From positions 1 to 37,461 of the forward strand of contig DVJV01000122.1 in assembly GCA_018716525.1 (NCBI GenBank): 37,461 bases of DNA. The letters are read 5' to 3'. The DNA comes from Candidatus Ventricola gallistercoris. GTDB taxonomy: Bacteria; Bacillota; Clostridia; Christensenellales; Aristaeellaceae. The notes under the pieces were generated by a model. It was given only the letters and a program-made list of their open reading frames with translations. It had not been told where the DNA came from and did no database searches. The position numbers were made by a program, and so were the translations under genes. This document shows positions 7,456 to 33,507 of this stretch, piece after piece; within the stretch, counting starts at the first letter, position 1; each line of letters starts with the position of its first letter.

Positions 7456-7854
7456 ATGCTCGTTAACGATCCCATTGCAGATATGCTCACCCGCATCCGC
7501 AATGCTCACATCGCCAAGCATGACAGCGTGGTGATCCCGGCCTCCAACATGAAGAAGGCCATCGCCAAGATCCTGCTCGACGAGGGTTATGTCAAGAGCG
7601 TCGATCTCATCGACGACGGCCTGGCCGGCCAGATCAAGATCGGCCTCAAATACACCGATAAGAAGCAGAGCGTCATCGTTGGCCTCAAGCGCATCAGCAA
7701 GCCCGGCCTGCGCGTTTACGCGCAGTGCGAGGAGCTGCCCCGCGTTCTTGGCGGCCTGGGCATTGCCATCGTCTCCACGTCCAAGGGCGTGATGACCGAC
7801 AAGCAGGCCCGCGAGGCCAAGGTCGGCGGCGAAGTGCTCGCCTACGTCTGGTAA
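7456..7854 (+). CDS. rpsH: 30S ribosomal protein S8
   Basis: [37 protein letters not shown]. Confidence 0.98.
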
Positions 7855-7882
7855 CCACGACGCTGAAACGGAGGTAATTATC

Positions 7883-8425
7883 ATGTCTCGTATTGGCAGA
7901 CATCCGATCGCAATTCCGGCTGGCGTCACGGTCACCGTTTCCGACGACAACCTCGTCGTCGTGAAGGGCCCCAAGGGCCAGCTCGAGCAGGCGGTCAACA
8001 AGAACATCACCGTCAAGGTGGAGGGCAATGAGGTGCTCGTCACCCGCCCCAACGATGAAAAGCAGAACCGCGCGTTCCACGGCCTGTACCGCTCGCTGAT
8101 CGCCAACATGGTGACCGGCGTGACCACCGGCTTCAAGAAGACGCTGACGCTCGTGGGCACCGGCTACCGCGCCGAGGCCAAGGGCAACACCCTGAACATC
8201 ACCATCGGCTACAGCCATCCGGTGATCATGCAGGCGCCGGCGAACATCACCTTCGCCACCCCGAACCAGACGACCATCGAGGTCAGCGGCATTGACCGCC
8301 AGCAGGTGGGCAACGTCGCCGCCGACATCCGCGCTGTGCGTAAGCCGGAGCCGTATCACGGCAAGGGCATCCGCTATGCGGATGAGGTCGTCCGTCAAAA
8401 GGAAGGCAAGACCGGTAAGAAGTAA
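7883..8425 (+). CDS. rplF: 50S ribosomal protein L6
   Basis: MSRIGRHPIAIPAGVTVTVSDDNLVVVKGPKGQL. Confidence 0.98.
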   Translation: MSRIGRHPIAIPAGVTVTVSDDNLVVVKGPKGQLEQAVNKNITVKVEGNEVLVTRPNDEKQNRAFHGLYRSLIANMVTGVTTGFKKTLTLVGTGYRAEAKGNTLNITIGYSHPVIMQAPANITFATPNQTTIEVSGIDRQQVGNVAADIRAVRKPEPYHGKGIRYADEVVRQKEGKTGKK

Positions 8426-8443
8426 GAAAGGGAGTGAGCGCTA

Positions 8444-8812
8444 ATGTTCGCAAAACGTGATCGCAATGAGATCCGTAAGATCCGTCATGAGCGTGTGCGT
8501 AAGAAGATCAGCGGCACGCCCGAAATGCCGCGCCTGTGCGTGTATCGCAGCCTCAACCACATCTATGCGCAGGTGATCGACGACGTGGCCGGCAAGACCC
8601 TGGTCTCCTGCTCCACCCTCGACCCGCAGGTCAAGGGCCAGCTCGAGGGTCTGGACAAGAAGGGTGCCAGCAAGCTCGTGGGCAAGACCGTTGCCGAGCG
8701 TGCCATGCAGGCCGGCATCAAGCAGGTCGTCTTCGACCGCGGCGGCTACGTGTACACCGGCCGCGTGGCGGAGGTCGCCGCAGGCGCCCGTGAAGCGGGC
8801 CTCGACTTCTGA
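8444..8812 (+). CDS. rplR: 50S ribosomal protein L18
   Basis: [29 protein letters not shown]... [25 protein letters not shown]. Confidence 0.97.
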
Positions 8813-16614: not shown

Positions 16615-16626
16615 TCCTTCGTTACG

Positions 16627-16663
16627 AAAGAAGCTGTTTCGCCATGCGGAGCAGCTTCTTTTA
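16627..16663 (+). terminator. Rho-independent terminator after rplQ
   Basis: aaagaagctg...cagcttcttt, 10-bp stem with the T-tract in the 3' arm. Confidence 0.7.
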
Positions 16664-16702
16664 CACCCGGCTATGTGGAAAGCCGCTGGGAAGGGGATAT
16701 AC

Positions 16703-18157
16703 ATGGACATCATGCAGGGAAACGATATGATTCTCATCCTCAATTACGCCGACGCATTCGCGGCTGAGGCCGCGCAGCGCCTGCGTGATGAGCGGATCTA
16801 CACCCGGATTATCAGCGGCATGACGACGGCCGGCCAGATCCGGGCGATGGAGCCCAAGGGAATCATCCTCTGCGGAGAGCCCGTCAGCGCGCAGGGCGTG
16901 TTTGATGCGCAGATTCTCAATCTGGGCATTCCTCTGCTGGCGATGGGGCACGCCGCACATATGCTGCTGGTGGCGATGGGCGGTGCGTGCGCAGGTACGG
17001 CGTTCGCACGGAAAAAGGCATATGTCGAGTATGGAAAGAGCCCGCTGTTTGCCGGTTTGGGCGGCGGAGAGCGGTACTTTGAAGAGGCGCTCACGCTGAT
17101 GCTGCCCGCCGATGTGCGGGTCACGGCCAGCGCGGGCGGCACGACCATCGCCTTTGAAGACGCCGCGCGCAACCTGTACGGGACACAGTTTGAGCTGGAG
17201 CGCAACGATCCCGAGGGCACGCAGATCCTGACCAACTTCGCGCGCGACGTGTGCCAGTGCAGCGCGTGGTTTACGCTCAAGGCAGCGCTTGAGCGGGTGG
17301 AGCAGACGCTTGCCGACGCCGCGGCGAAGGGCGGTCAGGCGATCTGCGCGGTGAGCGGCGGCGTGGATTCGACCGTCGCAGCCGTGCTGGCACACCGCGC
17401 GTTTGGCGAGCGCATGACGGCGATCTATGTGGAAACGGGCCTCATGCGCGAAGGCGAGAGCGCAGCGGTGCACGAGGCATTCCGCGAGATGGGCATCGGC
17501 CTGCGCAGCGTGGACCGCTCGGGCGTGGTGCTCGATGCACTGGCGCACCGGCGCAGCATGCGCGAAAAGCGGGAGGTCGTCTCCCGGTGTATGCATGAGG
17601 AGATGACCAGCCAGGCAGCGTCTATCAGCGGGGAGAAGGTGCTCATTTTGGGCACCAATTACAACGACCTGTTGCGTGGACGGCTCTCATCCGATCTGGT
17701 GGATAGCGACATGCCGCTTCTGGAGCCGCTTGCCTGCTTCTTTAAGGAAGAGGTGCGCTCGCTGGCCAGGGAGCTGGGGCTGGGCGAGGCGGTCGCGCAG
17801 CGCAAGCCGTTCCCACTGCTGGGACTGGGCGGACGCATACTGGGCGAGGTTACCGGCGAGCGCCTGGAGGCGCTGCGCACGGCGGAGGCGATCTTTGACG
17901 AGGAGATCCGCCAGGCCGGACTGGCACGCAAGCTGTACAAGTACTTCCCCGTGCTGGCCGATGCCGACGCTTTGCAGGGGAGCACCACCATCATCCTGCG
18001 GGCGGTGACGCTCTCGGGCGGCATGCTGGTGCCTGCGCGCCTGCCGTATGACTTGGTGGAGCGCACCGTGCAGCGCATTTTGAGCGAGACGCCGGCAGTG
18101 ATGCGCGTATTTTACGACCAGACACCCACACCTGTGGGACGGGAGACATTTGCATAA
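16703..18157 (+). CDS. GMP synthase-like protein: degenerate class I GATase domain fused to ATP-pyrophosphatase and GuaA C-terminal domain
   Basis: SGGVDST P-loop; RKPFPLLGLGGRILGEVTGERL and RAVTLSGGM..YDLVERTVQRIL resemble GuaA, but the Cys, His and PPGTIEWE motifs are not conserved. Confidence 0.8.
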   Translation: MDIMQGNDMILILNYADAFAAEAAQRLRDERIYTRIISGMTTAGQIRAMEPKGIILCGEPVSAQGVFDAQILNLGIPLLAMGHAAHMLLVAMGGACAGTAFARKKAYVEYGKSPLFAGLGGGERYFEEALTLMLPADVRVTASAGGTTIAFEDAARNLYGTQFELERNDPEGTQILTNFARDVCQCSAWFTLKAALERVEQTLADAAAKGGQAICAVSGGVDSTVAAVLAHRAFGERMTAIYVETGLMREGESAAVHEAFREMGIGLRSVDRSGVVLDALAHRRSMREKREVVSRCMHEEMTSQAASISGEKVLILGTNYNDLLRGRLSSDLVDSDMPLLEPLACFFKEEVRSLARELGLGEAVAQRKPFPLLGLGGRILGEVTGERLEALRTAEAIFDEEIRQAGLARKLYKYFPVLADADALQGSTTIILRAVTLSGGMLVPARLPYDLVERTVQRILSETPAVMRVFYDQTPTPVGRETFA

Positions 18158-18798: not shown

Positions 18799-19803
18799 AT
18801 GGGCAGGCTTTCTTATGTGATCCGGCGCGCGGCGAAGATGGACTACGGCGCGATGCTCAAGACCGCCAACATGCTGCACAAGAAGACGGGCAAGAGCCGT
18901 CTTTACCTGATGGCGGATATGGCCCGGTGTGCGGCCAAGTACAATGCGGGCTATATCGACTACAAGATCGCCGAGATGTACCGCTTAAACGATGCGCAGC
19001 GCGCTACGCAGATCACCCGCGGCATCTCCAACAGCATCGTGGCGCGGATGAACGACAAGAAGTTCTGGCACTTCTTTGACAACAAGACGGAGTTCAACGA
19101 GCTGTTTCACGATCAGGTGCGGCGTGAGTGGCTGAACCTGACAACCGCCAGCGAGGAGCAGTTTGCCGCTTTCCTCAAGGGGCGCGGCGATATCATCTGC
19201 AAGCCGATCGACGGCTCCAGCGGACAGGGCATCCTCAAGTGCACGCCCGAGCAGTACGGCGATCCGGCGGCGCTCTATGCGCAGCTCAAGGCGGCGGGCA
19301 TTGGCATTGTGGAGGACAAGGTCATCCAGCACGAGGCGATTGCGGCGCTGTGCCCCACATCGGTGAACACCATCCGCGTGGCCACGCTGTTGGGCGACAA
19401 GAAGGAAGGCATCGTCTATGCCTATATCCGCATCGGCAATGGCAAGGTCATGGACAATGTGGATTGCGGCGGCATGGCCGCGCCGGTGGATCTTAAGACG
19501 GGCATCATCAGCGGCGTGGGCGCCAACAAGGCGGGCGAAACCTATGAGTATCACCCGATGACGGGCAAGCGCATCCCCGGCACGCAGATTCCCTACTGGG
19601 ACGAGGTGCGCAGCATGTGCCTTTCGGCCATGCATGTAGTGCCGCAGGTGCGCTTTGTCGCCTGGGACGTGGCCATCACGCCGGATGGGCCCGTGTTCAT
19701 CGAGGGCAATTCCTTCCCGAGTCACGCCATTCCGCAGTTTGCCGCCCACTTCCCGGATGGCATTGGCATTCTGCCGCGGTTTGAGGAGTTTATCGACCTA
19801 TGA
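18799..19803 (+). CDS. ATP-grasp protein, sugar-transfer-associated type
   Basis: ITRGISNSIVARMNDKKFWHFFDNKTEFNELF, ICKPIDGSSGQGI, TSVNTIRVATLL, WDVAITPDGPVFIEGN. Confidence 0.75.
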   Translation: MGRLSYVIRRAAKMDYGAMLKTANMLHKKTGKSRLYLMADMARCAAKYNAGYIDYKIAEMYRLNDAQRATQITRGISNSIVARMNDKKFWHFFDNKTEFNELFHDQVRREWLNLTTASEEQFAAFLKGRGDIICKPIDGSSGQGILKCTPEQYGDPAALYAQLKAAGIGIVEDKVIQHEAIAALCPTSVNTIRVATLLGDKKEGIVYAYIRIGNGKVMDNVDCGGMAAPVDLKTGIISGVGANKAGETYEYHPMTGKRIPGTQIPYWDEVRSMCLSAMHVVPQVRFVAWDVAITPDGPVFIEGNSFPSHAIPQFAAHFPDGIGILPRFEEFIDL

Positions 19804-20729
19804 TCTGCACGCTTTGTCCGCGCCGCTGCGGGGTAGAGCGCACGCCCGAGGCGGGGGCGGGCATCTGCCGCATGGGCACGCTGCCCAAAATCGCCCGCGC
19901 GGCGCTGCACCGGTGGGAAGAGCCCTGCATCAGCGGCACGCGCGGCAGCGGAACGGTGTTTTTCTCCGGCTGCGGGCTTCGGTGCGCATTTTGCCAAAAT
20001 GAAGCGATCAGCCAGCGCGAAGAGGGGCAGATCGTATCGGTTGAGCGGCTGAGCGAGATCTTCCGCGAGCTGGAGGCACAGGGTGCGCACAACATCAACC
20101 TGGTCACGGCGGCCCACTTTGTGCCCGCGGTGATCGAAGCGCTGGAGCGCTACCGGCCGTCCATTCCCATCGTCTACAACAGCAGCGGGTATGAATCCCT
20201 CGACACGCTGCGCAGGCTCGAAGGAATTGTGGACATCTACCTGCCGGACTTTAAATACATCGACCCGGATATGGCCGCGCTGCTCTCCGGCGCGCGGGAT
20301 TATCCGCAGGCCGCCATGGAGGCGCTGCGCGAGATGCGCTGCCAGACAGGCCCTGCGGTATACGATGAGACGGGCGTCATGCAGCGCGGCACGCTCGTCC
20401 GCCATCTGGTGCTGCCGGGGCTGACAGGGGATAGCATGCGCATCCTCACGTGGATTCGCGATGAGCTGCCGGATACGCCCGTCTCGCTCATGGGGCAGTA
20501 CACGCCCTGCGGCCGCGCGCTGACGATCCCCGGCATGAACCGGCGCGTCACCAAAAAGGAGTACGCGCGCGTGCTGGCACATATGCAGGCCATCGGCCTT
20601 GATGGCTACCGCCAGGAGCTGACGGCGGCGGACGATGCCTTTATCCCCGCGTTTGACGGCACGGGGGTAGGCACTGCGGATGCGGGGGAAGCGCACGCGG
20701 ACCCCATGCCACAACACCGCTCGGCTTAA
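19800..20729 (+). CDS. Radical SAM protein (PflX/COG1313-like, putative activating enzyme)
   Basis: MICTLCPRRCGVER...GICRMG... FFSGCGLRCAFCQNEAIS (CxxxCxxC); ATGA overlap with the upstream ATP-grasp gene. Confidence 0.85.
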   Translation: MICTLCPRRCGVERTPEAGAGICRMGTLPKIARAALHRWEEPCISGTRGSGTVFFSGCGLRCAFCQNEAISQREEGQIVSVERLSEIFRELEAQGAHNINLVTAAHFVPAVIEALERYRPSIPIVYNSSGYESLDTLRRLEGIVDIYLPDFKYIDPDMAALLSGARDYPQAAMEALREMRCQTGPAVYDETGVMQRGTLVRHLVLPGLTGDSMRILTWIRDELPDTPVSLMGQYTPCGRALTIPGMNRRVTKKEYARVLAHMQAIGLDGYRQELTAADDAFIPAFDGTGVGTADAGEAHADPMPQHRSA

Positions 20730-20872
20730 CGCGCCCTGCGGATGCCTGAACGGGCGCCGGGGAAAACGAAGGGAAACCGTTCCCTACATCAAAGCAGAAC
20801 CCGGCGTCAAGCCGGGAGCCGATGCACATGCCGGCGCAAAGCGATGCGCCGGTGCAGAAAGGAAGAAATGCC

Positions 20873-22093
20873 ATGCAAGCCTGTTTTCTGCCCGCGGATA
20901 TCCTGCTGCCCGCCAAAGGCGTGGATGCCGGAAAGTGGGCGGTGATCGCCTGCGACCAGTTCACCAGCCAGCCGGAATACTGGCAGGAAGCGGCGCGCAT
21001 CGTGGGGGATGCGCCCAGCGCGCTGCACATCGTCTACCCGGAGGTATATCTTTCCGAGGGGGATGCGCGCATTCCGGGTATCCGAGAGGCCATGGCGCGC
21101 TATCTGTCCGACGGCATGCTTGTGCAGCGGGTGACAGATGGCTTTGTCCTTGTCCGGCGCACGACGCAAAGCGGCGAGCGGCTGGGGCTTGTGGGCCGGC
21201 TCGACCTGGATCAGTACGACTTTGCGCCCGGCACAAATGCGCCTGTGCGTGCGACGGAGGGAACGATTCTCTCGCGCATTCCGCCGCGGGTGCGCATTCG
21301 CCGCGGAGCGCCGCTGGAGAGCCCGCATGTGATGATGCTGCTCGATGATCCCGGCATGACGCTGATTGAGCCGCTGGCGCAGAAAGCCCTGCCTGCCTTG
21401 TACGAGGCGGAGCTGATGCTCGGCGGCGGGCACATCAGCGGCTATGCGGTGGAAGGTGCGCTGGCCCAGCAGACGGCGGCGCGCATTGCGCAGATGCAGC
21501 AGGAGAGCGGCGGCTTTTTCCTGGCGGTGGGGGATGGAAACCACTCGTTGGCGACGGCCAAGGCCTGCTGGGAGGAGATCAAGCCCACACTCACGGCGCA
21601 GGAGCGCGCGCAGCATCCGGCGCGCTATGCCTTGGTGGAGCTGGTGAACCTGCACAGCCCTGCCATGATCTTCAGGCCGATTCACCGGGTGGTGTTTTCG
21701 GCGGATATGCATGGGCTGATTGCCGCGTTTGACGAGGCCGTGTGCGCGCAGGGCATGAAGCTGCTGCCGGGGGAGGAGGAGATCGTCTTTGCCCGGGGCG
21801 ACATGCGGCGCGGGTTTGAGGTGCATGGACGGGGCGACCGGCTGCCTGTGGATGTTCTCCAGCATTTCCTGGATGCGCAAAAGGACATGTCCCTTGACTA
21901 TGTGCACGGGGAAGCGGATGCTGTGAACCTGACGCGGACAGGCGATGCCACCGCCATATTGCTGGGGGCGATCGACAAGCACAGCCTGTTCCCGGCGATT
22001 GCGGCAGGCGGCGTGCTGCCGCGCAAGACGTTTTCCATGGGAGAGAGCACGGAAAAGCGGTATTACATGGAGTGCCGGCGAATCGGCGGGTGA
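20873..22093 (+). CDS. DUF1015 family protein
   Basis: WAVIACDQFTSQPEYWQE... GDGNHSLATAKACWEEIK; start chosen after RBS aaaggaag. Confidence 0.8.
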   Translation: MQACFLPADILLPAKGVDAGKWAVIACDQFTSQPEYWQEAARIVGDAPSALHIVYPEVYLSEGDARIPGIREAMARYLSDGMLVQRVTDGFVLVRRTTQSGERLGLVGRLDLDQYDFAPGTNAPVRATEGTILSRIPPRVRIRRGAPLESPHVMMLLDDPGMTLIEPLAQKALPALYEAELMLGGGHISGYAVEGALAQQTAARIAQMQQESGGFFLAVGDGNHSLATAKACWEEIKPTLTAQERAQHPARYALVELVNLHSPAMIFRPIHRVVFSADMHGLIAAFDEAVCAQGMKLLPGEEEIVFARGDMRRGFEVHGRGDRLPVDVLQHFLDAQKDMSLDYVHGEADAVNLTRTGDATAILLGAIDKHSLFPAIAAGGVLPRKTFSMGESTEKRYYMECRRIGG

Positions 22094-23152: not shown

Positions 23153-23257
23153 CGTGGTTTGACCGGGAATAGGCGCAGTTTTGCAAAAAAGAACGGGGAA
23201 AACGGGCGAAAAACCGAATATTATTTTGAAAATATCAAAAAAAGATCTGAAATCCGA

Positions 23258-23286
23258 TTGAAAACCGCGCAAAGTCTTGCTATACT
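23258..23286 (+). promoter_or_regulatory. Promoter of the purE cluster
   Basis: TTGAAA (23258-23263), 17 nt, TATACT (23281-23286). Confidence 0.8.
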
Positions 23287-23317
23287 AAACTGGATTTTGA
23301 AAAGGAGAGGTGCTCAT

Positions 23318-23809
23318 ATGCCGAAGGTTGCATTGATCATGGGTTCAAAGAGCGACTGGCCGTCCCTCAAGGGCTGTGTGGACGTGCTCAGCCGCTTTGG
23401 TGTGGAGACGGAGGTGCACGTGGCCAGCGCGCACCGCACGCCTGAGAAGGTGGCGTCCTTTGCGGATCACGCGCGGGAGAATGGCTTTGAGGTCATCATC
23501 GCGGCGGCGGGCAAGGCGGCGCACCTGGCCGGCGTCATCGCGGGCCACACGACGCTGCCGGTGATCGGCATCCCGATCAAGTCTTCGTTTATGGACGGGC
23601 TGGATTCGCTTTTGTCCACCGTGCAGATGCCCACGGGCATTCCGGTGGCGACGGTCGCCGTGGGCGGCGGGGACAACGCGGCGTATCTGGCCGTGCAGAT
23701 CCTGTCGGTGAAGTATCCGGCGCTGGCGGAGGCGCTTGCCGCGCACCGCGTGCAGATGGCCGAGGCCATTGAGGCGGACGACAGGCAGATCGCGCAGGAG
23801 ATCGGCTGA
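23318..23809 (+). CDS. purE: N5-carboxyaminoimidazole ribonucleotide mutase
   Basis: MPKVALIMGSKSDWPSLKGCVDVLSRFGVETEVHVASAHRTPEKV. Confidence 0.97.
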   Translation: MPKVALIMGSKSDWPSLKGCVDVLSRFGVETEVHVASAHRTPEKVASFADHARENGFEVIIAAAGKAAHLAGVIAGHTTLPVIGIPIKSSFMDGLDSLLSTVQMPTGIPVATVAVGGGDNAAYLAVQILSVKYPALAEALAAHRVQMAEAIEADDRQIAQEIG

Positions 23810-23845: not shown

Positions 23846-24880
23846 ATGGTCACATATAAGGATGCGGGCGTGGATGTGGAGCGCGGCTATGAGGCCGTGC
23901 GCAGAATGAAGCAGCACGTCGCCACGACATTTGACGAGAATGTGCTCGGCGGCCTGGGCTCATTCGGCGGATTCTACTCCATCGAGAATGCAGGGGTGGA
24001 TAAGCCCGTGCTCGTCGCCGGCACGGACGGCGTGGGCACCAAGCTCAAACTCGCGTTTTTGATGGATAAGCACGATACGGTCGGCATTGACTGCGTCGCT
24101 ATGTGTGTCAACGATGTGGTTTGCCAGGGCGCAAAGCCGCTTCTGTTCCTTGACTACATCGCCACCGGCTACCTCGATCCGCAAAAGGTCGAGCAGATCG
24201 TCGCGGGCGTGGCCGAGGGCTGCCGTCAGGCGGGCTGCGCGCTCATCGGCGGCGAGACAGCCGAAATGCCGGATTTCTACCCCGCAGGAGAGTACGATCT
24301 GGCGGGCTTCACCGTGGGTATAGTGGGCCGCGACCGGTCCATCTCCGGCGAGCGCGTGGCCGAAGGCGATGTGCTCATCGGCGTGGCGTCTTCCGGCGTG
24401 CATTCCAACGGCTATTCGCTGGTGCGCAAGCTCGTGCTCACCGAAGGCCGCGACCTGTCTGCCCCCGTTGAGGCGCTGGGCGGCAAGAGCTGGGGCGAAA
24501 CGCTGCTCACCCCCACGAAGATCTATGTCAAGTCCGCCCTGGCGGCGTGCGCCGCGGCGGATGTGCACGGCATTGCGCACATCACCGGCGGTGGTTTCAT
24601 CGAGAACATTCCGCGCATCCTGCCCGAAGGTCTGTGCGCCCGCATCGAGCGCGGCACGTGGCCGGTGCTGCCGGTGTTTGCCGAGCTTCAGCGCATGGGC
24701 GGCCTGACCGACAGGCAGATCTACAACACGTTCAACATGGGCATCGGCATGGTTTACGCCGTTGCGCCGGATCAGGCGGATGCGCTCATGGCTTCCCTGC
24801 GCCAAAGCGGCGAGCAGGCTTACCGCATCGGCAGCGTGCAGCCGATCGCAAGCGACGGCGAAAGGCTGGTGCTGGCGTGA
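23846..24880 (+). CDS. purM: Phosphoribosylformylglycinamidine cyclo-ligase
   Basis: [22 protein letters not shown]... [16 protein letters not shown]... [11 protein letters not shown]. Confidence 0.98.
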
Positions 24881-25497
24881 GCACGAGGATCGCGGTGCTC
24901 TGCTCCGGCGGAGGCACCAACCTGCAGGCGCTCATCGACGCCGTGGAACGCGGCGCCATCGACGGCAAGATCGTGCTGGTGATCTCCAACGCCTCCAAGG
25001 CCTATGCGCTTGAGCGCGCGCGGCAGCACGGCATTCCCGCTGTCTTCGTCAGCAAGAAGCAGGCTGGAAGCGATGAGGCGTTTAACGACGCCATTCTTGA
25101 AAAGCTGCAGGAGGCTGGTGCGCAGCTCGTCGTGCTGGCGGGTTACCTGCCCATTGTGGGCGCGCAGATCGTGCGGGCGTACGAGCACCGGATCATCAAC
25201 ATCCACCCGGCGCTGATCCCCGCGTTCTGCGGCCCGGGCATGTATGGTCACCACGTGCACGAGGCGGTGCTGCGCTATGGGGCCAAGATCTCGGGGGCAA
25301 CCACGCATTTTGTCGATGAGCAGGTCGATCACGGCGGGGTGATCATGCAGCGCAGCGTGCCTGTGCTGGAGGATGATACGCCCGACACTCTGGCTGCCCG
25401 CGTGCTTACAGTTGAGCACGAGATTCTGCCCGAGAGCGTGCGCCTTTTCTGTGACGGAAAATTAGGAGTAGATGGAAGACGGGTACATGTGCTATAA
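24877..25497 (+). CDS. purN: Phosphoribosylglycinamide formyltransferase (GTG start)
   Basis: [23 protein letters not shown]... [23 protein letters not shown] overlap with purM. Confidence 0.96.
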
Positions 25498-25498: not shown

Positions 25499-25587
25499 AA
25501 ACTGCTAACATGTATGTGGATCACGGGCGGCACATCCGCGGGGCTTGCGCCGGCGGGAAACCGCTCTATGAAGGGTGTCTTCCAGAG

Positions 25588-26403
25588 ATGAGAATTTATC
25601 AACCTGTCAGAGGGGTAGGCGGCGCGCTGCGCGAGAACAGCTTTGTCATCATCGACGATGCGGGTGTGGAGATCGGGCAGGGGGGCCTTGAATACAGGGT
25701 GCTCAAAAAAATGATGGCCGACAGGCCGCTGGATATCGAGATGACCATGAGCGCGCACCCCATGGCCAGCGATACGCTTTTTGGCGCGCTTTTTGCGCGT
25801 GCCGAGCGCATTCGCGACGAGCAGGGCGGTCTGCCCGCACGGCTGTACACGCGCTGCGCCATTGACGATGCCGAGCGCCACGAGTATTTCACCCGCATGG
25901 GCTTTGACGACTACGACGGCGAAGAGCTCTTTGTGCTCAATGTGCCGCAGGATATGAGCACCCGCCGCCGCAATTACAGCCCGGTGGGCACCAAGAGCAT
26001 CGACGTGGATCTGCGTACGCGCACCAGGCGGGAGGAATTCCTGCTGAGCCTCAAGAGCTTTGGCTGCGTGGAGCACGCCAACGAGTGGCTGGAGGAGCGC
26101 ATGAAGGGGCCGGTGTTTATCGCCAAGGCGATGTACTACGGCAGCGACTTCGTGGGGCAGATGCTGGTCACCGGCACGCAGAACGAGGCGACACTGGAAA
26201 TGGTCTGCGTGGAGCAGAAGTGGCGTGGGCGCGGCGTGGCCAGCGCCATGGTGGATGAGGCGCTCATGCAGCTGAACCGCCAGCAGGTGCCCTACCTGAC
26301 GGCGCGCGCGGCGCGGCGCAATGCGAGCGCGATGAAGTTCTTCAAGCGCAGCGGGTTTGACTGGGTGCGCACGGAGGAGTATTTGCTCGGGCGGGATATC
26401 TGA
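25588..26403 (+). CDS. GNAT-family N-acetyltransferase, probably two GNAT-like domains
   Basis: TLEMVCVEQKWRGRGVASAMVDEALMQL, ARRNASAMKFFKRSGFDW; N-terminal half also GNAT-like (FTRMGFDDYDGEELFVL). Confidence 0.8.
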   Translation: MRIYQPVRGVGGALRENSFVIIDDAGVEIGQGGLEYRVLKKMMADRPLDIEMTMSAHPMASDTLFGALFARAERIRDEQGGLPARLYTRCAIDDAERHEYFTRMGFDDYDGEELFVLNVPQDMSTRRRNYSPVGTKSIDVDLRTRTRREEFLLSLKSFGCVEHANEWLEERMKGPVFIAKAMYYGSDFVGQMLVTGTQNEATLEMVCVEQKWRGRGVASAMVDEALMQLNRQQVPYLTARAARRNASAMKFFKRSGFDWVRTEEYLLGRDI

Positions 26404-26499
26404 TGCGCCGCGCGGCGCATCAGACAAAGCCGGCGAATTGGCGTCGGGCAGCCCGGATGGGAACAACAGGGTATGAACGACCAAAGAGAGGGAGAGCAT

Positions 26500-28050
26500 A
26501 TGATTAAGCGTGCGATTTTGAGCGTTTCGGATAAGACCGGCATTGTGGAGCTCGCCCGCCGTCTGGCGGACAAGGGCGTGACGCTGCTGTCCACCGGCGG
26601 CACGATGAAGGCGATCGCGCAGGCAGGCATCCCCGTGACGGGCGTGAGCGATGTGACGGGCTTCCCGGAGTGCCTGGACGGCCGCGTCAAGACGCTGCAC
26701 CCCATGATCCACGCGGGCCTTCTGGCCGTGCGGGATAACCCCGAGCACATGGCGCAGATCCGCGAGCTGGGCGTGGAGCCCATCGACATGGTGGTCATCA
26801 ACCTCTATCCCTTCCGCCAGACGATCGAGAAGCCGGGCGTGACGTTTGAAGAGGCGGTGGAGAACATCGACATTGGCGGCCCGACGATGCTGCGCGCGGC
26901 GGCCAAGAATGCGCAGGACGTGGTGGTCGTCATCGACCCGGCTGACTATGACCGGGTGATGGATGAATTCGAGGCCACGGGCGATGTGTCGCTTTCCACC
27001 AAGCGGTATTTGCAGTACAAGGTGTTTGAGCACACCGCGCAGTATGACTGCATGATCCAGCAGTACCTGCGTTCGCAGCTGCCCGACGCGCCCGAGTTCC
27101 CGCAGAACCTGACGGTTACCTTTGAAAAGGTGCAGGAGATGCGTTACGGCGAGAACCCGCACCAGAAGGCGGCGTTCTACCGCGACCTGGGCGACATTGC
27201 GGGCACGCTTCCGGCGGCCAAGCAGCTGCACGGCAAGGAGCTCTCCTACAACAACATCAACGATACGAACGGCGCGCTGGAGCTGCTGCGCGAGTTTGAC
27301 ACGACGGCGGTTGTAGCCGTCAAGCATGGCAACCCGTGCGGCGTGGGCGTGTCCGACGAGGTCAGCGAGGCATACCGCCTGGCGTATGAGGCCGATCCGG
27401 TGAGCGTGTTCGGCGGCATCGTGGTGACCAACGGCACGGTGGATGCGGCGACGGCCGAGCAGATGAGCAAGATCTTCCTGGAGATCATCGTGGCTCCGAA
27501 GTTTACCGACGAGGCGCTTGCCATCCTCACCCGCAAGAAGAACCTGCGCCTGCTGGAGCTGGATACGACCATCCGCGCCTACCCCAAGGGCGAGCGCGTG
27601 ATGCGCAAGGTGTCCGGCGGCCTGCTGGTGCAGGAGATTGACGACAAGCTCCTGCCGGAAGACGGCGAGCTGCGGGTCGTCACCGAGAAGGCGCCCACGG
27701 CCGAGCAGATGAAGGACTTGCTCTTTGCCTGGAAGGTGGTCAAGCACACCAAGTCCAACGGCATCGCCATCGCCAAGGACAACCAGAGCCTGGGCATCGG
27801 GCCGGGACAGGTCAACCGCATCTGGTCCACACAGATGGCCATCGAGCGCAGCGGCGAGAAGGTGCGCGGCGCGGCGCTGGCCAGCGATGCGTTCTTCCCG
27901 TTTGACGACTGCGTAAAGGCCTGTGCCGAGGCGGGCATCGCCTGCATCATCCAGCCGGGCGGCAGCGTGCGTGATCAGGATTCCATCGATGCGTGCAACC
28001 GCTATGGCATCGCGATGGTCTTCACCGGGATGCGCCATTTCAAGCACTGA
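26500..28050 (+). CDS. purH: Bifunctional AICAR transformylase / IMP cyclohydrolase
   Basis: MIKRAILSVSDKTGIVELARRLADKGVTLLSTGGTMKAI... RYGENPHQKAAFY... PGGSVRDQDSIDACN. Confidence 0.98.
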   Translation: MIKRAILSVSDKTGIVELARRLADKGVTLLSTGGTMKAIAQAGIPVTGVSDVTGFPECLDGRVKTLHPMIHAGLLAVRDNPEHMAQIRELGVEPIDMVVINLYPFRQTIEKPGVTFEEAVENIDIGGPTMLRAAAKNAQDVVVVIDPADYDRVMDEFEATGDVSLSTKRYLQYKVFEHTAQYDCMIQQYLRSQLPDAPEFPQNLTVTFEKVQEMRYGENPHQKAAFYRDLGDIAGTLPAAKQLHGKELSYNNINDTNGALELLREFDTTAVVAVKHGNPCGVGVSDEVSEAYRLAYEADPVSVFGGIVVTNGTVDAATAEQMSKIFLEIIVAPKFTDEALAILTRKKNLRLLELDTTIRAYPKGERVMRKVSGGLLVQEIDDKLLPEDGELRVVTEKAPTAEQMKDLLFAWKVVKHTKSNGIAIAKDNQSLGIGPGQVNRIWSTQMAIERSGEKVRGAALASDAFFPFDDCVKACAEAGIACIIQPGGSVRDQDSIDACNRYGIAMVFTGMRHFKH

Positions 28051-28154
28051 CGTTTTGCACCCCTTCGCACAGCCCGTGAAGGGCGGCGGAGGGGCGTTTT
28101 CTGACCGACCACGGCATCGCGCGGCAGGCGCGCATGCAAAGGAGGATTGCACCG

Positions 28155-29420
28155 ATGAAGGTACTGGTGATTGGCGGCGGCGGACGCGAGCACGCCGTGT
28201 GCAAGAAGCTGAGCGAGTCCCCGCTTGTGACGGAGCTGCTCTGTGCGCCGGGCAATGCCGGCATCGCGCAGGTGGCACGGTGTGTGCCGGATGTGAAGGC
28301 CACGGATGTGCCGGCCATTGTTGCGCTGGCCAAGGCGGAGCAGGTGGATTTTGTCTGCGTCACGCCGGATGACCCGCTGGCGCTGGGGTGCGTCGATGCG
28401 CTGGAGGAGGCGGGCATCGCGGCCTTCGGCCCGAATGCGCAGGCGGCTCAGATGGAGGCCAGCAAGATCTTCTCCAAAAACCTCATGCATAAATATGGCA
28501 TCCCCACGGCGAAGAGCGAGGTCTTCACCGATGCGGATGCGGCGCTCGCCTATCTGGCTACGCAGCAGGCGCCCATCGTCGTCAAGGCCGACGGCCTGGC
28601 GCTGGGCAAGGGCGTGGTGGTTGCGCAGACGATTGAGGAAGCCCGGCAGGTCGTCGAGGAGATGATGCGCGGCGGCAAGTTCGGAAAGAGCGGCGCGCGC
28701 GTGCTCATCGAGGAGTGCATGTTTGGCCGCGAGGTGACGGTGCTTTGCTTCTGCGATGGCAAGACCATCGTGCCCATGCGTGCGAGTCAGGATCACAAGC
28801 GCGTGTTTGACGGCGACAAGGGCCCCAACACCGGCGGCATGGGCGCGTTTGCGCCCAGTCCGCTGTACACTGAGGAGATTGCAAAGCGCACCGAGCAGGA
28901 AATCCTGCTGCCGACGCTGCGCGCGATGAATGCCGAAGGCATCACGTTCAAGGGCGTGCTCTACGTGGGGCTGATGCTCACGGCGCAGGGGCCGAAGGTG
29001 GTCGAGTACAACGCGCGCTTTGGCGACCCGGAGACGCAGGCCGTGCTGCCGCTGCTTGAAAGCGACCTGATGGAGATCATGATGGCCGTGCGTGAGCAGC
29101 GCCTGTCCGGCATGGATATCCGCTGGAAGGAGCAGGCAGCGGCCTGCATCGTGCTGGCCAGCGGGGGATATCCGGGCAAGTACGAGAGCGGCAAGGTGAT
29201 CAGCGGGCTTGAAGATGCGCAGGCGATGGGCGCAACGGTCTACCATGCGGGCACAAAGCTCGTGGATGGCGCCTATGTGACTGCGGGCGGACGCGTGCTG
29301 GGCGTCACCGCGCTGGGGAACACGCTTGCCGACGCGGTGCATGGCGCGTATGCGGCGGCGGAAAAGATTCACTTTGAAGGCGCGCACATGCGCAGGGATA
29401 TCGGCAGCCGGGATCTGTGA
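28155..29420 (+). CDS. purD: Phosphoribosylamine-glycine ligase
   Basis: [23 protein letters not shown]... [33 protein letters not shown]. Confidence 0.97.
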
Positions 29421-31878: not shown

Positions 31879-33507
31879 ATGCGGCTTCGGTTGTTTTTTC
31901 CCATCCTGGCGCTTACTGCCCTGCTGGTGGGAACGGTGCTGCTGGCATCGCCGTATGCGCCTGTGGTGGGTGCGTTCAGGCCGATCGAGGAGATCTGGGC
32001 GATTGAGGATGAGCGGGTGCTGAGCGAAACCCCGCTGGTGACGGCGCTCTCCAACAACAACGTGCCGCTGGCCTACGACGCGCAGCAAAACACGTTTTAC
32101 TGCACGCTGGGGCTGAATCACGAAGGCGAGTGGCCGGATATCCACCTGACGGCGCCGGGCGCATCGGGAATCACGCTGTGCTTTACGGACGATTACACGT
32201 TTGACTCGTGCGATACGGCGATCCGGGAGGGCTATCCGTATGAGATCATGGCGTATACGGACGAGGAATATGCCTACTTTTACATCGTCTTTACCGGTTT
32301 GCCGGTGCTCAGCGTGCAGGCCCAGCAGGAGATTGGGCAGGAAGACACGCTCATAAGCGCGCAGATGAGCGCATATGGCGAGGAGCCGCTTTCCAGTTAC
32401 GGCTGGATGCATGTGCGGGGCGCCTCGACGTTTGAGGCGGCGAAATCGGGCTACCTGGTCAAGTTTTCCAAGGGCGCGGGGCATAGCAAGAAGGTCATCC
32501 AGCAAGTGCCTGGCTTTGGCATGGCCGATAACCTGGTGCTGCTGCCGCTCAACTATGACGACACCAAGATGCGCGACCGCCTCAGCTGGGATGTCTATTC
32601 GCAGCTGGCCGAAAACGTGGCGAGCTTTGGCGCTCGAAAATCGGGCTATGTGGAGCTGTTCATCGACGGGCGGTATGAAGGATTGTATTTGATGCTGGAG
32701 CCGTACGATGAAGAAGAGGAGCTGCAAAACACGGGCAGCATGCACGTGCTCACGGACAGCATTTACCGCACCGCGGTGCTCAGTTTTTCGCGCGACAGGC
32801 TCTACTGTGATCATCCGCGGCGGGGAAACACGGGCTTTGAGCTCTACTACACGCAGGAGAGTGAGGCGCACGCGTTTGACCTGCTCAATAGCTATATGGA
32901 GATGCTCTACGAGGAGGACGACGCGGTCTTTGCGCAAAAGGCGCTTGCGTGCATGGATATCGACTCCATTGTGCGCATGGAGGTGCTCGTGCAGGGCGGC
33001 GGCCTGACTGACAATCTCTACAACAACCTCTATGTATGGGCCAGCCCGAATGGAAAGGGCGTGACTTACCGTTTTGCGCCGTGGGATATGGATCTCACCT
33101 GGGGACTTAAGAAAGAAGATATTGGCGAACTGTACGAAAACTGGATGACGTTTGGCGTATTTGACCGGATGATCGCCCTTGACGTGGGCGGCATCCGCGC
33201 AAAGCTTTGCGACGCCTGGCAGACGTGGCGCAAGACGGCGTTTTCAGAGGAAGAGATCGCCAAGCGGATTGAACAGTACACGTTTGAACTCAATGAGTCC
33301 GGCGCGATGCGGCGCAATGCCGAGCGCTGGGGGCTGGAGATGTCGTATGCCGACGGCTATGAGATCATCTCCTATTGTGCGGTGCGCTTTGCGCTGCTCG
33401 ACGGGCTCTTTGCGGCCATGGCTGCGTCGCCCGAGGTGGGGAATGACTTTCTGACATCGGCCACTTTTGAGCAAAAAGCGGTGCCGATTGGCGAGTTCTC
33501 TTTGTAA
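31879..33507 (+). CDS. CotH kinase family protein with N-terminal TM/signal segment
   Basis: WMHVRGASTFEAAKSGYLVKF, NLVLLPLNYDDTKMRDRLSWDVY, YRFAPWDMDLTWG. Confidence 0.8.
   Translation: MRLRLFFPILALTALLVGTVLLASPYAPVVGAFRPIEEIWAIEDERVLSETPLVTALSNNNVPLAYDAQQNTFYCTLGLNHEGEWPDIHLTAPGASGITLCFTDDYTFDSCDTAIREGYPYEIMAYTDEEYAYFYIVFTGLPVLSVQAQQEIGQEDTLISAQMSAYGEEPLSSYGWMHVRGASTFEAAKSGYLVKFSKGAGHSKKVIQQVPGFGMADNLVLLPLNYDDTKMRDRLSWDVYSQLAENVASFGARKSGYVELFIDGRYEGLYLMLEPYDEEEELQNTGSMHVLTDSIYRTAVLSFSRDRLYCDHPRRGNTGFELYYTQESEAHAFDLLNSYMEMLYEEDDAVFAQKALACMDIDSIVRMEVLVQGGGLTDNLYNNLYVWASPNGKGVTYRFAPWDMDLTWGLKKEDIGELYENWMTFGVFDRMIALDVGGIRAKLCDAWQTWRKTAFSEEEIAKRIEQYTFELNESGAMRRNAERWGLEMSYADGYEIISYCAVRFALLDGLFAAMAASPEVGNDFLTSATFEQKAVPIGEFSL

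Follow-up and report, generated by a model that had tools for sequence, protein, structure and literature searches.

A glutaminase-dead, lid-less GMP-synthetase paralogue (GuaA2) in Candidatus Ventricola gallistercoris and its family

GMP synthetase is an essential enzyme as well as a drug target, and the label 'GMP synthase' is easily given to GuaA-like frames of the kind considered here. The present frame, termed GuaA2, lies in a 37,461-nucleotide stretch of the Candidatus Ventricola gallistercoris genome (the window, to which all positions refer unless a locus is named). A preliminary description of this DNA held that the product is not a standard glutamine-dependent GMP synthase and named three candidate roles: ammonia-dependent GMP synthesis, an ATP-pyrophosphatase with another acceptor, and a regulatory pseudoenzyme. 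The locus raises the question of whether GuaA2 still makes GMP and, if not, what it may do instead.

A GuaA-like frame after the alpha operon

GuaA2 occupies positions 16703–18157 on the forward strand and encodes a protein of 484 aa, its 484 codons being open without an internal stop; AAGGGG precedes the start at 16703, and a further in-frame ATG is present at 16673. Residues 10–477 match NCBIfam NF000848 (268.6 bits, cut-off 400), which bears out the end-to-end colinearity with GuaA that had been read by eye. Together with the scores for TIGR00884 (201.8 bits, cut-off 338.75) and TIGR00888 (66.3 bits, cut-off 172.15), this places the protein below all three GuaA equivalog thresholds by a wide margin. 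Pfam GMP_synt_C gives 32.6 bits, and the best sequence match in the PDB is a GMP synthase (E 2.4e-56). The AF2 model, built from 66 relatives, is confident (pLDDT 92.4, pTM 0.88) and displays the three-domain GMPS fold (Foldseek E 2e-42 to GMPS); in the fold search, the closest structures are the GMP synthetases 2ywc, 7sbc and 1gpm, with TM scores of 0.72–0.77.

Upstream, the last gene of the alpha operon, rplQ (L17; 16024–16614, forward strand), is followed by a terminator-like hairpin of 17 bp at 16626–16662 (forward strand), with a T run on its 3' side and a folding energy of −24.9 kcal/mol for the stretch (z −4.9). The hairpin, which was not picked up by a simple terminator scan, separates GuaA2 from the alpha operon. 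An Rfam search upstream of GuaA2 found no riboswitch; at one relative's locus a drum RNA (RF02958, 76 bits) was detected on the minus strand (L060:12994–13107). Downstream, about 5 kb with ATP-grasp, radical SAM, DUF1015 and aldose-epimerase genes lie between GuaA2 and purE. The ATP-grasp (sugar-transfer type), radical SAM and DUF1015 genes span 18799–22093, and relatives have no counterparts of them next to GuaA2. The purine genes follow on the forward strand: purE (23159–23809), purM (23846–24880, by profile), purN (24868–25497, start approximate), a gene for a protein judged GNAT-like on inspection of its sequence (25510–26403), which is a recurrent neighbour of GuaA2 in the family, and purH and purD (26473–29420, by profile). 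The window's cluster is devoid of purF, a gene that lies between purE and purM in congeners. A CotH-kinase family protein is encoded at 31879–33507, and its family recurs near many congeners' loci.

A function could not be read from the neighbours. MazG-like and GNAT-like proteins do recur, but every one of the 29 genomes of the genus, whether or not it has a GuaA2 match, contains the GNAT-like protein. About 15 genomes, for the most part ones whose GuaA2 is less changed, encode the small MazG-like protein, with intact ExxE and ExxD motifs, upstream of GuaA2 (L048–L050, L065, L066, L072, L074–L076, L079, L080, L082 and L224, assigned by reading the sequences).

Changes in the glutaminase and synthetase halves

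Motifs were compared in an alignment of 44 GuaA and 66 GuaA2 paralogues, and each motif difference quoted in the preliminary description proved to be real. The class-I glutamine amidotransferase (GATase) domain covers residues 7–190 (16721–17272, forward strand); it is confidently modelled by AF2, and its fold matches the human GATase domain 2vpi. At codon 82 (16946–16948) the nucleophilic Cys is replaced by Gly, as had been noticed; Gly occupies this position in 65 of the 66 paralogues, and Cys in all 44 GuaA. The reported exchange of the catalytic His of QFHPE for Glu was likewise found, at codon 164 (17192–17194), and the position is not kept as His across the clade. The WMSH stretch, said to have no counterpart, is replaced in GuaA2, and the SVGVMGD loop is partly deleted relative to GuaA. 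Of the Cys-His-Glu triad the Glu alone is kept (65 of 66 paralogues); a triad at shifted positions was looked for in the GuaA2 alignment and is absent. Among the 18 sequences of the clade that contains the window protein (the window clade), none (0%) of the glutamine-pocket residues tested has been kept.

The ATP-pyrophosphatase domain, at residues about 191–395 (17273–17887; profiles and PDB match), presents a different picture. The P-loop SGGVDS (residues 218–223, 17354–17371) is invariant in the 18 window-clade sequences, and the catalytic-Asp motif is kept as GTNYND, with Asp322 (17666–17668) corresponding, when the GTIYPD motifs are aligned, to Asp371 of Plasmodium GMPS, a catalytic residue (PMC9312489). 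In the Plasmodium enzyme, Asp371 is required for adenyl-XMP formation, and Glu374 couples the glutaminase and synthetase active sites (PMC9312489, PMC4673825). The equivalent of Asp371 is Asp in 59 and Glu in 6 of the 66 GuaA2 proteins, while that of Glu374 is retained in only 6 of 66; the coupling residue has been lost along with the glutaminase, as expected if the two sites no longer communicate. Lys348, Glu350 and Arg352 are, like Asp322 and SGGVDS, nearly invariant across the window clade.

The acceptor side is remodelled. The IKSHHN lid, described earlier as absent, is deleted at residues about 327–340 (17681–17722), is missing from nearly all GuaA2 and has 0% of its residues kept in the window clade. 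Every key step of GMP synthesis is described as depending on this lid, with two of its His residues required for adenyl-XMP formation (PMC9312489, PMC4673825), and the IK(T/S)HH motif was reported in all of 600 GMPS sequences (PMC4673825). The XMP-phosphate loop reads PFPLLGLG (residues 369–376, 17807–17830), and the change noted there recurs in the clade as PFPGPGLA to PFPxLGLG; the former acceptor loop has been refixed as KPFPxLGLG, with K368, L373 and G376 fixed in the window's genus. At the C-terminus, TPTPVGRETFA (18125–18154) takes the place of the KPPxTxEWE signature, the clade pattern being TPTxxGxExF, which agrees with the tail difference first seen against PPATIEWE. In that signature, Glu553 is critical for XMP binding (PMC9312489, PMC4673825).

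With both the lid and the XMP tail lost, GMP synthesis by GuaA2 is unlikely, judging from its sequence. Of the three candidate roles proposed earlier, ammonia-dependent GMP synthesis fares worst, since the lid and the XMP-binding Glu are gone; the other two remain under consideration. That GuaA2 is an ammonia-dependent GMP synthetase we regard as very unlikely, although Plasmodium GMPS with a mutated glutaminase Cys still forms GMP from ammonia (PMC4673825) and one basal GuaA2 member (L065) keeps the GTIYPDVIES motif, the HHNVGGLP lid and PPATIEWE: the lid and tail are absent from the window protein and from nearly all others.

Relatives, sister form and ancestry

The window genome is a draft of 2.37 Mb and 84.6% completeness. 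The suggested search for a second guaA returned a canonical gene with intact triad, lid and tail on another contig of the same genome (C98), and IMP dehydrogenase is present as well. The canonical gene elsewhere, the absence of a shifted triad and the clade-wide substitutions support the view that GuaA2 is not a standard glutamine-dependent GMP synthase. GuaA genes of the genus often stop 60–170 bases short of the end of a contig, as though followed by a repeat (G000:C98:171, G001:C209:66, G028:C24:136, G003:C69:151 and others), which may explain drafts that seemingly have no guaA.

GuaA2-like proteins occur in most genomes of the window's genus and are widespread in the family, being present in 85 of 131 genomes (counted by hand among those at least 90% complete plus the window's own). 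In these 131 genomes, GuaA2 (at least 152 bits) and GuaA (at most 145 bits) are told apart by a profile built on the dead glutaminase domain. An order-level scan of 396 genomes identified just one further family (f23) with GuaA2, and none was found elsewhere in the class among 393 genomes sampled; there, outside-family matches reach 155 bits but are of GuaA length, and the two top ones, when translated, are canonical GuaA. A pattern scan of named genomes with P0001 alone gave no matches. The scan with alignment A1 gave two true GuaA2 records (L113 and L114), both from 'Clostridia bacterium' MAGs and one of them from sheep rectum; the remainder show 29–36% identity, the level of ordinary GuaA, and the 20 of them that were translated have the catalytic Cys. 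No GuaA paralogue of this kind was found in the open literature searched.

Ten good genomes carry GuaA2 as the sole GuaA-like gene, and the co-occurrence of GuaA2 and IMP dehydrogenase in some good genomes without another GuaA would suit ammonia-dependent GMP synthesis. Against this, the ten are scattered across genera, in a pattern as from draft gaps, and the GuaA2 of the four that were read has no lid and mostly altered P-loops. Replacement of GuaA by GuaA2 in these genomes was rejected as the likely reading, other members of their genera mostly having a GMP synthetase; draft gaps explain most of the cases, though ten is somewhat above expectation.

The preliminary description proposed to test whether such homologues form a conserved clade with the same substitutions, and they do: in the full-length tree all GuaA2 fall in one clade (SH 1.0), and an IQ-TREE analysis of the synthetase half (53 sequences) recovered the same clade with SH-aLRT 97 and UFBoot 100. 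Its sister in the latter tree, with support 99/100, is a synthetase-only GuaA form that is widespread in the family and whose GATase domain is truncated or absent, with the lid and KPxxTIEWE tail intact (for example L193:12960–14267, L237 at about 7500–8789, and L228–L239). It is this sister form that combines an intact synthetase with the lack of a glutaminase; the window GuaA2, having neither lid nor XMP tail, does not. In about 25 good genomes the synthetase-only or a similar glutaminase-less form is the sole recognisable GMP synthetase, and these bacteria hence probably make GMP from free ammonia. Further, two full-length GuaA with an intact synthetase half (L240, G167:C50; L241, G061:C167) are devoid of the glutaminase Cys, LALGDAM and LGIGYGF replacing LGICYGM, and probably represent separate losses; in all, we infer that the glutaminase was lost at least three times in the family. 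Across the 131 genomes, a glutaminase domain exceeds the TIGR00888 cut-off in only 95, while a synthetase exceeds that of TIGR00884 in 120. Ammonia-dependent GMP synthesis may be common in the family, as these sequences suggest, and would suit an ammonia-rich gut. A stand-alone class-I GATase-like gene of about 210 aa was observed about 14 kb from guaA in one genus, g27 (G150:C1:3337694–3338251, G158:C1:1142843–1143400).

The family accordingly has as many as three GuaA lineages (the glutamine-dependent one, the synthetase-only form and GuaA2), and their distribution bears on whether GuaA2 is an obligate subunit of its synthetase-only sister. The sister relationship of the two forms and the dimerisation of GMPS through a domain that both retain would allow such a pairing; the distribution largely refutes it and makes it highly implausible. 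GuaA2 occurs without the synthetase-only form in 42 of its 85 genomes and the reverse holds in 41 genomes, numbers that are approximate since genomes with the synthetase-only form were recognised by subtracting one match count from another. By genus, GuaA2 is alone in 11 and the other form alone in 4. The anti-correlation of the two forms per genome (p 8e-6) is absent by genus and so reflects kinship.

Gene order points to where GuaA2 came from. The next branch in the synthetase-half tree, with weak support (74.5/88), is a canonical guaA located between larE-larB-larC and purE-purF-purM (G113, L216; lar names assigned by reading the sequences), and GuaA2 itself follows larB in one genome (G066). 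In Lucifera butyrica and Desulfotruncus alcoholivorax, a canonical guaA heads guaA-purE-purF-purM-purN-purH-purD. The placement of GuaA2 after the alpha operon and outside the purine cluster, as first described, holds only for the window; it fails in several congeners, where GuaA2 is immediately followed by purE-purF-purM in the order rplQ-GuaA2-purE-purF-purM-(purN)-GNAT-purH-purD (purE is directly downstream of GuaA2 in L033, L034, L038 and L113). Since tree and gene order both trace GuaA2 to a guaA at the head of the purine operon, the gene is best interpreted as a descendant of the guaA resident there, displaced by another guaA. The glutaminase was probably lost before the acceptor site was remodelled: a working glutaminase is present neither in GuaA2 nor in its sister, which makes loss before the duplication the most economical order. 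The ancestral purine-operon guaA would thus have lost its glutaminase and then duplicated, one duplicate giving rise to the synthetase-only form of relatives. The other, GuaA2, would have kept a full-length dead glutaminase domain, the ATP site and the dimer core, and lost the lid and XMP tail. The family offers a natural series, from GuaA through proteins with a dead glutaminase and an intact or nearly intact synthetase (L240, L241, L065) to GuaA2 and finally to its members without the P-loop; along this series one can read, and test, the order in which coupling, lid and ATP site were lost.

Selection, possible roles and known systems

GuaA2 proteins diverge about 3–6 times as much as GuaA of the same genome pairs in most comparisons, and dN/dS is 0.14–0.37 for GuaA2 in all 12 pairs tested, against 0.05–0.12 for GuaA. 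GuaA2 is fast-evolving yet under purifying selection. A decaying relic without function would fit the rapid evolution, the several independent P-loop losses and the patchy presence in 85 of 131 genomes. We consider it improbable, given the dN/dS values in 12 of 12 pairs, the absence of frame breaks in the GuaA2 copies examined, the retention of the gene over dozens of genera and the non-random placement of the residues that do not vary. Within the window clade, invariance extends to 15 of the 19 ATP-site residues, which were selected from known GuaA motifs, compared with 104 of all 478 columns (hypergeometric p 9e-8). Among the 168 columns that GuaA conserves, 58 are unchanged in this clade, 15 have changed and become refixed (three of them within the XMP-phosphate loop), 17 are deleted and 78 are variable.

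GuaA2 has lost the glutaminase triad; the ATP loop, intact in the window clade, has been lost in several other lineages under selection. The P-loop Asp is replaced at five places of the sampled tree (L021/L022, L057, L073, L081 and L086/L087) and is also lost in L224 and L243. The reading frames nevertheless remain intact; one of these cases, L021/L022, belongs to the window's own genus, outside the window clade, and has a dN/dS of 0.14. The repeated loss of the Asp from genes that were kept suggests that ATP turnover is not what is selected in every member.

Two readings of the window protein have to be weighed against this record. GuaA2 may be an active ATP-pyrophosphatase in which a new acceptor, bound in the remodelled XMP pocket, is adenylated by ATP, and AMP is then displaced by ammonia or a different nucleophile, the dead GATase domain serving as a scaffold. 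The near-invariance of SGGVDS, Asp322, Lys348, Glu350 and Arg352, the refixed KPFPxLGLG loop and a fold common to LarE and NAD synthetase, both with other acceptors, all speak for such an enzyme. We nevertheless hold it to be possible but doubtful, because at least six lineages, one of them in the same genus, break the ATP loop and keep the gene, because nearly all members are without the lid that adenylation requires in GMPS, and because no conserved neighbour points to a substrate. The repeated loop losses favour a regulatory pseudoenzyme. Our leading proposal, put forward tentatively and at somewhat short of an even chance, is that GuaA2 is a displaced GMP synthetase which in the window lineage has become an ATP-binding, nucleotide-responsive regulatory or structural pseudo-GMP-synthetase that makes no GMP. 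On this proposal, the window-lineage protein would bind ATP, as its retained ATP site suggests, and would serve purine metabolism as a regulatory or structural protein. Two observations pull the other way: the ATP-pyrophosphatase site is preserved so well in the window clade that the protein could plausibly be an active enzyme, and the former XMP site is not merely lost, the fixation of K368, L373 and G376 in the genus resembling adaptation to a new ligand. A broader account, which we likewise offer with reserve, would have a GMP synthetase turn ammonia-dependent in ammonia-rich guts and duplicate, one copy becoming, with a remodelled acceptor pocket, either a novel ATP-dependent enzyme or a regulator of purine synthesis that reads ATP; GuaA2 would then be an undescribed GuaA-derived family, placed in some members at the head of the purine operon.

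Among known systems, the two-domain bacterial GuaA (TIGR00884/TIGR00888; 1GPM, 2YWC, 7SBC) shares with GuaA2 the fold, domain order, ATP P-loop, catalytic Asp and dimer core, whereas GuaA2 is without the glutaminase Cys and His and the IKSHHN lid, and has altered PFPGPGL and KPPxTxEWE motifs. The synthetase-only GuaA of the same family, its sister clade, resembles subunit B of archaeal GMPS (6JP9/2DPL) and has, like GuaA2, no working glutaminase; unlike GuaA2, it keeps the lid and the KPxxTIEWE tail and presumably still makes GMP. The LarE sulfur transferase and NAD synthetase share the ATP-pyrophosphatase fold, and the matches of GuaA2 to them are weak: 51 bits against a cut-off of 150 for TIGR00268 (LarE), 34.5 bits for PF02540 (NAD synthetase), and scores below the equivalog cut-offs for NAD+ synthase (45.3 against 255 bits) and nadE (31.9 against 63.65 bits). 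Both differ in their acceptors, and GuaA2 has the C-terminal domain of GMPS. Human carbamoyl-phosphate synthetase 1 is the classic example of a glutaminase domain that has been inactivated (Cys to Ser) and is kept in the protein (PMC4655335); it is still an active, ammonia-using enzyme, whereas GuaA2 has also lost its acceptor lid.
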